NCBI GenBank assembly: GCA_016215115.1
Contig: JACRLN010000020.1
Location: 1 to 64,000 of the forward strand
Direction of reading: 5' to 3'
Length of the DNA: 64,000 nucleotides
Source: Nitrospirota bacterium
GTDB lineage: Bacteria; Nitrospirota; Thermodesulfovibrionia; UBA6902
Shown here: positions 4,654 through 11,337 of the stretch, one piece after another
How positions within the stretch are numbered: position 1 is the first letter of the stretch
How the letters are laid out: the number at the start of each line of letters is the position of its first letter
Position numbers and translations under genes: made by a program
Notes under the pieces: model-generated
The model's database searches: none
What the model saw: only the letters and a program-made list of their open reading frames with translations
Told to the model about the DNA's origin: nothing

Positions 4654-5328
4654 ATGAAAAGGATATTTGTTTTAGCTGTGATCATGGCGATGGTATTAGG
4701 ATTTACTTTGCAGGCTAATGCTGCATTGGAACTCCGGGGCACGGATAACCAAGGCAATCGGCTTATCTATGACACTGATTTTAATATTACGTGGTACGAT
4801 TACTCGAAGTACAATGCTCAGTTGAACTGGGCATCTGCCTTTAACTGGGCATCTGCCTTGTCGGTGTCAGGGGGAGATTTAGTGGGGGTTTATGATGACT
4901 GGAGACTGCCCACTGCCCTGAACCAAAATGGGACAGGCCCTTGCAGTGGCCCTAACTGCACTGGAAGCGAGATGGGGCATTTGTTTTATACGGAGCTTGG
5001 GAATACTACAACCTTGGGATTAACCAAAAAAGGTGACTTTCAGAATTTGGTGTCGCCGTACTACTACTGGTTGCAGGAGTCCGCCAGTTCAGCCGCCGCG
5101 TGGAACTTCAGTACCGGCAGTGGCTATCAGAACGCCTACTCTAAGAACAACGCCTTCTACGCCATGGCCGTTCGTCCCGGAGATGTCGCCGTAGTTCCTG
5201 AACCAATAAGCTTTATTCTCTTTATCACAGGCGGAACGCTTTTAGCAGGGAGAAGATTATTAAGAAGGCATAACACTTATAAGGCCTCCGGTTGTCAAGG
5301 GCAAAAGATCACCCTTCACGGATTTTGA
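4654..5328 (+). CDS. Exported PEP-CTERM protein with a DUF1566-like domain
   Basis: A 224-residue protein with a signal peptide ([23 protein letters not shown]), then an Lcl/DUF1566-like region ([61 protein letters not shown]). A PEP-CTERM signal follows: [19 protein letters not shown] then RRLLRR, recognised by exosortase. Start at 4654 has GGGAGG upstream. The codons for HN (5269-5274) lie in the inverse core GCATAAC, and everything after them (TYKAS...LHGF) is encoded by the end of the inserted IS, so the native tail was replaced. The sorting signal is upstream of the insertion and intact. No exosortase gene is in the window. Confidence 0.78.
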
Positions 5329-5549
5329 AAAAATCCGTCATGTGAGCGATACAAATAAAACATCTTCTGACTTAATTTCAAATCAACCGGTGACAGAACA
5401 TGTCTGCACCAATTCCCCAGTTAGTTTCAGGATCGGGTAAGGGGCAGAACATGTTGTATCGCTTTATGTAATTTAAAAATCTCCCCTTTCCCCTCTTTGC
5501 CAAAGAGGGGTATTTAAGGTAGACCGGGCGTCCAATCAAGTCAAAGGCT

Positions 5550-5635
5550 GCAGGGCCTCTGATCCATGATGCTCGTAATCGCGGTCAATGCCGCAGACGA
5601 ATAGTACGTAAGAGCATTCATCAGTTTGGCTCTGC
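5550..5635 (-). ncRNA. Candidate bridge RNA of the IS110/IS1111 element
   Basis: In the 380-base gap between the transposase stop and the IS end, nested complementary segments are visible: GCAGGGCC (5550-5557) with GGCTCTGC (5628-5635, one G-U), CTGAT (5559-5563) with ATCAG (5620-5624), ATGCTC (5569-5574) with GAGCAT (5612-5617) and GCGG (5581-5584) with CCGC (5591-5594). AGACCGGGCG (5521-5530) and CGCCCGGTCT (5666-5675) close the region. In IS1111-type elements the target-guiding bridge RNA lies on the 3' side of the transposase, as here. The fold is seen; the function is inferred. Confidence 0.45.
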
Positions 5636-5658
5636 CCGTAAAGCGCTCCAGTTAGACG

Positions 5659-6726
5659 TCAGGCTCGCCCGGTCTGTATCAACTGTTTGTTTAGAAATTT
5701 CTCTATACTGAACACCTCCTGTCTTTTGAGGATATAATAAACCGCTCTTCCGATCTTGTGAGCAAGAATGGTTAATGCCTTAGCCTTGCCGTGTTTTTTT
5801 ACAAGCTTTGCCTTGTATTTCTTCACATCAGAACTTTCCCTGAGCATTATTACCGCTGCCTCTGAAAAGGCCCACTTCAGATGAGCATTGCCGATCTTCG
5901 CTCCTGAAGTGCCATATCTTTTACCTGCTGATTCCTTTGCTGATTTCACCAGCCTGCTGTAGGAGACAAAGTCCTGCACACTGGGGAACCTGTTGATGTC
6001 ATGTATTTCATAAAGAATGATTAAACTGAGGGTCTGACCGATGCCGGGCACGGACAGCAGGCGGAACAGCGCCTCCGGATCATGTGCCTTTGCTTTTTTG
6101 TTGATGTAATATTCCAGCTTCCCCAATAATTGATCATAATGGTCAATAAGTGAGATGTTGACTTCCATGCTCTTGCGCACACATTCATCACTGAACCGCT
6201 CTGCGACTCCTTCCCTGTTGCTCTTGTAGCTTATGCTTTTAAGAAATGGGGGAAGATTGTACTGATGATTGGTATTCTGGATATGGGCCAGCAGGTCGGC
6301 TCTCTTTCTCATGAGGTGATTTCTTCGCTTGAGCAAATCTCTTGTTGCTCTCATCTCCGATGGATAGACATATGCCACCGGTATCATTCCTCCTCTTAAA
6401 AGAGCAGCTATTTTATGTGAATCAATTCTGTCGTTTTTTGCCTTCCCTCCATGAATGGCTTTCATGTAAAGGGCGTGACCAAGGACAAAAGGGATATTCT
6501 CCTTTCTGCACAGATCTGATAGCCAGTACCAGGCAAACATGCATTCAACGGCTACTACAGTGTCCTCGCGGTATGGCTCAATAATCTGTAAAAATGCATC
6601 TGGTCCCGAGTCTATATTTTTTTGCTTGACTATCGCTCCCTCCTTGTCAATAATACAGACATACATGGTTCTGGCGTGGAGATCGACTCCACAATAATAC
6701 TTGTGCTGCTTAACATAGAATTTCAT
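5659..6726 (-). CDS. IS110-family DEDD transposase
   Basis: 355 residues, full length for the family. The N-terminal RuvC-like DEDD domain shows CGVDLHARTMYV (first Asp), VVAVECMFAWYWL (Glu) and KNDRIDSHKIA (Asp pair). A coiled middle follows, then the transposase_20 domain with LLSVPGIGQTLSLII and FVSYSRLVKSAKES...GTSGAKIGNAHLKW, which carries the conserved serine region. Proteins of this family recombine DNA with a bridge RNA that pairs with target and donor. Start at 6726 is preceded by a strong GAGGAGG ribosome site that can pair with the IS end. No frameshift is seen, so the enzyme is probably active. Confidence 0.9.
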   Translation of the reverse strand: MKFYVKQHKYYCGVDLHARTMYVCIIDKEGAIVKQKNIDSGPDAFLQIIEPYREDTVVAVECMFAWYWLSDLCRKENIPFVLGHALYMKAIHGGKAKNDRIDSHKIAALLRGGMIPVAYVYPSEMRATRDLLKRRNHLMRKRADLLAHIQNTNHQYNLPPFLKSISYKSNREGVAERFSDECVRKSMEVNISLIDHYDQLLGKLEYYINKKAKAHDPEALFRLLSVPGIGQTLSLIILYEIHDINRFPSVQDFVSYSRLVKSAKESAGKRYGTSGAKIGNAHLKWAFSEAAVIMLRESSDVKKYKAKLVKKHGKAKALTILAHKIGRAVYYILKRQEVFSIEKFLNKQLIQTGRA

Positions 6727-6728
6727 AT

Positions 6729-6798
6729 GGCCTCCTCCTATAAGAAAGTTTTTGTGGGTATAACATGATACTGCATTGCAGTATCATGTGAGGAGGCC
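6729..6798 (-). promoter_or_regulatory. IS-end hairpin masking the transposase ribosome site
   Basis: GGCCTCCTC (6729-6737) is complementary to GAGGAGGCC (6790-6798). On the coding (minus) strand the first-transcribed copy is the IS terminal repeat and the second is the Shine-Dalgarno sequence of the transposase. Between them is a 13-bp perfect hairpin, ACATGATACTGCA / TGCAGTATCATGT (6763-6775, 6777-6789). RNA read in from outside the IS would hide the ribosome site. The pairing is seen; the control is inferred. Confidence 0.5.
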
Positions 6799-6809
6799 TT
6801 AATTAGTAT

Positions 6810-6938
6810 CCAGTCAGTGCAGTTGAACGAGTACCACAGGACACTTTTTCAGATGAGCGATGACTTTAGATTTACTAATCGTTTTTTTTGCTTTTTAACG
6901 TCGTACAGTGGTACTCGTCACTGAATTCTACGTTGGGC
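6810..6938 (+). other. attC site 7, main part right of the IS
   Basis: CAGTCAGTGCAG, then the arm GAACGAGTACCAC (6825-6837), the arm GTGGTACTCGTCACTG and a perfect core box GTTGGGC at 6932-6938. Its inverse core is missing here but stands at 5268-5274 (GCATAAC), on the other side of the IS. Confidence 0.75.
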
Positions 6939-6957
6939 AGATAAAAAGGAGAGCGTC

Positions 6958-8492: not shown

Positions 8493-8691
8493 GCCCAACA
8501 CTTATAAGGCCTCCGGTTGTCAAGGGCAAAAGATCACCCTTCACGGATTTTGAAAAAATCCGTCATGTGAGCGATACAAATAAAACATCTTCTGACTTAA
8601 TTTCAAATCAACCGGTGACTTTAGATTTACAAATCGTCTTCATGCTCTTTATCGTCATACATGGCACTCGTCAGTGATCAGGGCGTTGAAG
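8493..8691 (+). other. attC site 9, chimaeric: left arm replaced by an IS end
   Basis: The inverse core GCCCAAC (8493-8499) is followed at once by IS sequence (8500-8619) and then by only the right half of an attC (TTTAGATTTAC... GGCACTCGTCAGTGATCAGGGC) with core box GTTGAAG at 8685-8691. The left stem arm is absent. The join at GGTGAC/TTTAGATT shares TGAC with intact sites, suggesting a deletion between IS and attC. Confidence 0.65.
8500..8619 (-). mobile_element. Relic of the IS1111-type element (one end only)
   Basis: Together with the AAC before it (8497-8619), this stretch is identical by eye to the 123 bases at 5272-5394, the end of the complete IS. It begins ACTTATAAGGCCTCC and contains the hairpin CGGATTTTGAAAAAATCCG. 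The transposase and the other end are missing. It sits right after the inverse core of an attC, the same place as in the full copy. Confidence 0.75.
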
Positions 8692-10978: not shown

Positions 10979-11190
10979 ACTTATAAGGCCTCCGGTTGTC
11001 AAGAGCAAAAAGTCACCCGTCACGGATTTTGAAAAAATCCGTCAAGTGAAGCGATATAAAACAAATTCTGACTTAATTTCAAATTAACTGGTAACAGATC
11101 ATGTTCAATAAGTATAGATTCCGGACAAGCCGGAATGACAACTCTTTGAACATGTCTGCACCAAACACTTATAGAGGTTCAATAGCCAGT
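10979..11190 (-). mobile_element. Second relic of the IS1111-type end, carrying a palindromic insert
   Basis: 10979-11095 is a diverged copy of 5275-5394 starting ACTTATAAGGCCTCC, again straight after an inverse core (GCCTAAC). The similarity continues as ACAG.(A/T)CATG...TCTGCACCAA, but about 45 bases are inserted between: CATGTTCAA...TTGAACATG enclosing ATTCCGGACAAGCCGGAAT, a palindromic repeat of the chromosomal type. After TCTGCACCAA the start AACACTTATA recurs at 11165. CCAGTC near 11190 matches the right flank of the full IS. Edges are approximate. Confidence 0.6.
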
Positions 11191-11220
11191 CGATCCCGAT
11201 GATTCGGGACATCTGACGAC

Positions 11221-11337
11221 ACATGAATGCGTACTACAGGACGCTGTTTCAGATGAGCGGTGATTTGAGATTATCAAATCATCTTATTGCTCTGTAACCT
11301 TTTACAGTGGTACGCATCAGTGGTGCTCTCGTTATGT
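11221..11337 (+). other. attC site 12, main part
   Basis: The arms are ATGAATGCGTACTACAGGACG (from 11223) and CAGTGGTACGCATCAGTGG (11305-11323), with core box GTTATGT at 11331-11337. The matching inverse core is GCCTAAC at 10972-10978, separated from this part by the IS relic. Confidence 0.7.

Follow-up and report, generated by a model that had tools for sequence, protein, structure and literature searches.

The stretch directly 3' of the IS110/IS1111-type transposase gene in the analysed DNA (64,000 nucleotides in all, hereafter the window) is, with a probability that we put at about 0.9 from sequence comparisons, the target-binding module of a seekRNA/bridge RNA of an IS1111-type insertion sequence (IS) inserting at the R'' box of attC sites. 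RNAs of such a type have been described before, and that of the window seems to be one more member, apparently without the half that reads the element's ends. The proposal of the initial annotation, namely an RNA-guided recombinase aimed at integron sites, is supported by the conservation of the structure and by guides that covary with the attC flanks. The features concerned are listed in Table 1.

Table 1. Positions in the window of the insertion sequence, its putative guide RNA and its insertion site
Feature	Position	Strand	Remarks
Whole insertion sequence	5275..6810	-	1536 bp; 7-nt and 3-nt extensions and 12-bp sTIR (10/12), abutting GTTATGC
IS110/IS1111-type transposase	5659..6726	-	355 aa, intact; PF01548 1.8e-14, PF02371 1e-17
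Right sTIR GGAGGCCTTATA	5278..5289	-	Read with the IS ends
Module 1, putative target-binding half of seekRNA/bridge RNA	5520..5675	-	Covariance model 113.8 bits; covariation 0/500 shuffles
Closing stem, 5' strand	5666..5675	-	Inside the last transposase codons
Closing stem, 3' strand	5521..5530	-	Pairs with 5666-5675
Inner hairpin GCGG/CCGC	5580..5595	-	93.3% of cells paired, 4/5 pairs compensated in 12 sequences
Putative right-target guide GUCUAAC, reading the top strand of the attC box GTTRRRY	5651..5657	-	Permutation 1/20,000; own match 5/7
Putative left-target guide CUUUGACUUG, reading the bottom strand of the left flank	5537..5546	-	Permutation 0/20,000; own match 7/10
Module 2, 5' remnant, conserved block CTGCCCCTTACCCGATCCTGAAACTAACTGGGGAA	5413..5450	-	Conserved in relatives
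Join with about 160 nt (donor guide) missing	5412..5413		Compared with the same-genus copy L120
Target box GCATAAC (IS strand: GTTATGC), the R'' box of the attC split by the IS	5268..5274	+	Abuts the IS
Rest of the interrupted attC, terminating GTTGGGC	6811..6939	+	Direct sequence reading; arms repeat neighbouring attC sites

The transposase carries both domains characteristic of IS1111 elements (DEDD/RuvC-like and Tnp; PF01548 and PF02371) above their cut-offs and is present as a single copy in the genome (2.8 Mb, 99.4% complete). Its DEDD and Ser motifs read VDLH14, VECM60, NDRIDSHK98 and GTSGAKIGN272, within which we take the catalytic residues to lie by analogy with IS621; the IS621 protein in the PDB gives a weak sequence match with the transposase (E 6.7e-5). 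Among the best 60 plasmid records, the range of transposase identity from 31.9% to 44.8% is empty. On the transposase strand, the left end of the IS reads ctgactg/GATACTA-ATTAAGGCCTCC and the right end GGAGGCCTTATA-AGT/GTTATGC (slashes mark the junctions). The subterminal inverted repeats (sTIR) ATTAAGGCCTCC and GGAGGCCTTATA are complementary at 10 of 12 positions and are followed by extensions of 7 and 3 nt, in agreement with the sTIR of 11-13 bp and the extensions of 7 and 3 nt that PMC11187229 gives as a mark of IS1111 elements. A long non-coding region 3' of the transposase, a further trait of IS1111 elements, covers 384 nt (5275-5658); it runs well beyond the stretch delimited in the initial annotation, the IS reaching 5275.

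The interrupted attC is that of the cassette with the ORF 4654-5328, and GCATAAC is its first box, directly against the IS, so the element sits at an end box of an attC in one orientation, as is typical of attC targeting. A strict attC finder returned a single site in the window (4582), being too strict to be useful. The comparison covered 82 loci, that is 80 related loci from bacterial genomes, the window copy (L091) and L094, and ends were accepted in 63 of them. Of the loci whose right flank lacks GTT, only L011 and L074 were retained; they carry GATAACC and ATTAGGC, respectively, in place of GTTRRRY. Four further loci (L017, L028, L029 and L075), with a truncated element or an apparently misassigned right end, were dropped from the final counts, with which the first guide counts, including these four, agree. 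The right flanks of the relatives are GTTRRRY-like, but the ends were picked with a bonus for GTT, so that the count of GTT is not independent; a GTC box is found in 33 of 57 left flanks and an upstream arm in 13 of 54 (3 in shuffled sequences). The attC location of the relatives' insertions is thus only partly shown.

The initial annotation had proposed a multi-stem RNA with nested helices in this place. The stretch folds at -56.5 kcal/mol, to be compared with a mean of -45.7 (sd 3.75) for dinucleotide shuffles (z -2.9, 0/200 as low), and the pairings were largely conserved. Among 12 close relatives including the window, 86.5% of the cells of the whole proposed structure are paired, against 33.5-40.6% with the partners slid. 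The closing stem (5521-5530 with 5666-5675) is paired at 10/10 positions in the window and in 96.5% of cells in this set, the helix 5581/5594 in 93.3%, the helix 5559/5624 in 91.3%, though most of its cells are gapped, and the helix 5569/5617 in 81.9%, with compensatory changes. The helix 5550/5635 is the exception, as it is paired in 52.1% of cells and unsupported; the consensus instead pairs 5644-5649 with 5547-5552. The 5' strand of the closing stem (5666-5675) doubles as the last transposase codons (..QTGRA stop), and in several relatives the stop codon precedes the stem.

For the larger structure counts, near-identical copies (at least 90%) were removed and 42 of 54 elements kept. In these 42 elements, the closing stem and one hairpin are paired in 82.7% of cells, against 38.0-47.0% with the partners slid by up to three columns, and their covariation score is 0.772, against 0.240 in shuffled alignments (0/500). 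An RNAalifold consensus of the window copy and the 11 usable relatives nearest to it contains 24 pairs, 14 of them changed on both sides, with 93.8% of cells paired. A lack of conserved structure in related copies, named in the initial annotation as a sign against its proposal, did not occur, the structure being kept with compensatory changes. Furthermore, a covariance model built from 17 relatives, with the window left out, finds exactly the place of the candidate bridge RNA predicted directly 3' of the transposase (5520-5674, 113.8 bits, E 3.3e-25) and has no second match anywhere in the 2.8-Mb genome. In 55 further sources, a few of which had contributed to building the model, it gave 49 matches in total at E values up to 1: 48 sources contain a match immediately 3' of the transposase, and one of these has a second, weak one. 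No match of the window to Rfam was obtained at the gathering score. A Pseudomonas aeruginosa element (L136, 31.5% identity) was considered as an element of the same kind; the RNA model does not match it and the kinship is not supported.

Two guides occupy an internal loop between the closing and the inner stem, the arrangement of the target loop of a bridge RNA. The 5' side of the loop reads RYYYAAC-UGG in almost all relatives, the RYYYAAC being the complement of the GTTRRRY box to the right of each IS, and its 3' side reads NNNNUUG-AUURG in the relatives and repeats the left-flanking bases of each IS. The heptamer GTTAGAC, singled out earlier as a possible part of the attC-selecting guide, does occupy 5651-5657, with the stop codon (5659) on one side and the remaining non-coding region on the other; the RNA itself carries the complement, GUCUAAC.

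The guides were compared with the flanks by dealing the flanks out anew among the elements (20,000 permutations). The left guide agrees with the left flank at 179 of 245 positions in 49 elements (null 131.2, sd 5.4; 0/20,000), at 138 of 195 when one element per guide is kept, and at 87 of 147 for the three most variable positions alone, where 49.0 are expected. It is significant in both identity classes (0 and 2 of 20,000), and six shift controls (flank moved by -3 to +3) gave no signal above chance. The right guide agrees with the right flank at 128 of 232 positions in 58 elements (null 110.1; 1/20,000), which bears out the role proposed for the heptamer, and at 58 of 92 when each guide is represented by a single element (0/20,000). 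It covaries in the closer identity class (5/20,000); no covariation was found in the less similar class (32 elements, <57.6% identity; 4,040/20,000), because almost all guides there are UCUAAC. The possible outcome of no loop complementary to target or donor, which would have weakened the initial proposal, was therefore not encountered.

The guides of the window itself are imperfect, with 5/7 matches for the right heptamer and 7/10 for the left guide (GACUUG at 5537-5542, the flank being GACTGG). Identical left guides are found at different flanks, whose agreement is largely confined to the bases nearest the junction; the guide therefore appears to select its site and not to be a copy of it. 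The sharing of one left guide by elements in differing, yet similar, attC sites suggests a role of the RNA in restricting the choice of attC.

In the relatives, module 1 is followed downstream by a second conserved module ending in GATARGNGTTTGG. Within this end, the guide ATA[AGT]GN matches the right end of the IS: over 56 elements, its three variable positions give 152 of 168 matches (null 117.4; 0/20,000). It is carried by 56 of the 63 elements examined, and is therefore, together with its covariation with the right end, under selection; judging by these matches, the ATA[AGT]G guide corresponds to the donor guide that a bridge RNA should have. An open scan of the downstream module for identity and complementarity with the ends and flanks in 53 elements gave this right-end guide and one weak signal at the left sTIR, and no donor-loop arm reading the left IS end was found in it. 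In relatives such as L011 (3771-3898), L018 and L023, the second module shows the pattern YAACTGG ... TTTGATTRGG, the same as in the target loop, and in L075 it contains a second weak match to the target model (13.9 bits, E 0.24). From these patterns, modules 1 and 2 may be an old duplication.

The window copy has no donor-binding loop matching the element's ends. The intact same-genus copy L120 has 160 nt more at the join 5412/5413; the sequence missing from the window copy would follow ...CTAACTGGGGAA, whose last base is 5413, and precede TTGGTGCAG, whose first base is 5412. The donor-guide string ATAAGTGTTTGG is absent from the IS of the window and is found in the window only at 11161-11172, inside an IS remnant (11149-11221) that is 99% identical to L120. 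Of the loops matching attC and the IS ends that the initial annotation advised looking for, both attC guides were thus found and the donor guide is missing; the description as a bridge RNA holds for the target half, the donor-guide part of the relatives being lost in this copy. In principle, the missing donor stretch might also result from faulty assembly.

By analogy with ISEc11, ISKpn4, ISPst6 and IS621, we infer that the RNA is transcribed and bound by the transposase, and that it guides both the excision and the insertion of the element. Circle formation would join the ends of the IS into a junction promoter (TTGACA-N18-GATACT), which is predicted in 58 of 59 elements; a junction promoter made from joined ends has been shown for ISEc11 according to PMC11187229. 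Its transcript would give both the transposase and the RNA. In the right half of the target (GTTRRRY), the top strand would pair with the 5' arm of the loop (GUCUAAC); in the left half, the bottom strand would pair with the 3' arm (NNNNUUG, here GACUUG) as far as the shared G. Bound in the transposase, the RNA would read both attC strands and direct insertion to the position after RYYYAAC. Module 2 would have been deleted from the window copy, whose RNA is therefore, judged from the sequence, most likely target-only; this copy is probably either no longer mobile or in the course of being lost.

The window copy might also be read as mobile, module 1 alone being a sufficient seekRNA and module 2 dispensable. 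Its transposase and both its ends are intact, module 1 (about 155 nt) is similar in length to the long seekRNA of 145-170 nt, and ISEc11 moved with an RNA of 82 nt for which only target matches are described in PMC11187229. We consider this reading unlikely, however, since the donor guide is present in 56/63 elements and covaries with the right end, and since the window copy is the sole one in its genome. Even less likely is a natural separation of function in an element that is still moving, either because the target loop suffices or because the remnant at 11149-11221, which lies 5 kb off and retains the donor guide, supplies the donor half in trans.

Two other explanations dispense with a guide altogether. 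The structure overlaps the last transposase codons and comes directly after the stop, and could on that account serve stability or termination of the transposase mRNA, the guide matches being by-products; this is strongly disfavoured and very improbable, because two loop arms covary with external flanks while the shift controls are null, which is unexpected of a terminator or stability hairpin. The stretch could also be a REP-like or attC-derived palindrome outside any IS, as a genome-wide REP-like palindrome adjoins it (about 5472-5516) and the array is rich in attC repeats. However, the REP-like sequence falls outside the covarying stretch, the module 1 model matches the genome once, and module 1 lies directly 3' of the transposase in the relatives; the covariance-model searches of the window, the genome and the relatives refute this reading, to which we give a negligible probability. 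The target-binding module of a seekRNA/bridge RNA remains the preferred explanation.

The IS1111-attC group of insertion sequences was reportedly described by Tetu and Holmes in 2008 and by Post and Hall in 2009. As far as this group is known from citations, it shares with the IS of the window the insertion at an attC box, the sTIR and an IS1111-type transposase, whereas the present hosts, according to record titles, are Nitrospirota and several other phyla. RNA-guided insertion into attC is in print for ISKpn4 and ISPst6 (PMC11187229). As described in that paper, the seekRNA of ISKpn4, ISPst6 and ISPa25, like the putative one of the window, lies downstream of the transposase and has a segment for each attC strand, the top-strand guide coming first. 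The order found here, with guides for the top and then the bottom target strand, is the segment order of a seekRNA and matches the guide order published for IS1111 elements in the same paper. Unlike in these three elements, the RNA of the window has a downstream deletion, and whereas their target matches are described there as identical, the left guide of the present group varies and tracks the flank. With the IS621 bridge RNA, as described in PMC11208160 and PMC11208158, the present RNA shares an internal target loop, two guides for opposite strands, a donor guide (in the relatives) and a junction promoter. In contrast to IS621, the RNA lies 3' and not 5' of the recombinase gene, its two target guides are in reversed order (PMC11208160, PMC11208158), and the window copy has lost its donor part.

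In the mostly open-access literature covered, at the level of titles and listed abstracts, neither guide/target covariation across this group nor a natural loss of the donor module was found described. The comparison extends a known idea, that RNA steers IS1111 elements into attC, to a resolved anatomy for a large multi-phylum group, in which the loop, the two target guides and the right-end donor guide have each been tested statistically. As a natural deletion of the donor part, the window copy makes testable a disagreement in the literature, that is whether a donor loop is needed (the bridge-RNA view) or a target-reading seekRNA only; for the elements compared here, the covariation speaks for a donor guide. 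In plasmids examined with a view to ISKpn4, ISPst6 and ISPa21, no IS110/IS1111 gene is annotated, either in the first 50 kb of NC_009650 or in NZ_CP073313, the latter being named in PMC11616780.

Several minor observations concern the surroundings of the element. Solo 3' ends of the same IS occur in the window at 8500-8619 and 10979-11221, each directly after an attC box (CCCAAC and CCTAAC, respectively); the former is identical to the 3' end of the IS and the latter retains the donor guide. Similar solo 3' ends are found in genomes of the same genus. Among those listed, 13 copies all start after an AAC box and break off at different points, so that a uniform mini-element was rejected and they look like decayed remnants. 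The REP-like palindrome CCCCTCTTTGCCAAAGAGGGG (5472-5516), located within the non-coding region of the IS, is common in related genomes, and accounts for 32 of the 43 own-genome matches listed; L120 carries a related insert in the corresponding position. The genome also encodes two integron integrases scoring above the TIGR02249 cut-off, on contigs other than that of the window (C46:24075-25010 and C20:2105-3040). Finally, a Vibrio campbellii plasmid (L137) carries two IS110-family transposase genes in tandem at 68-2544.
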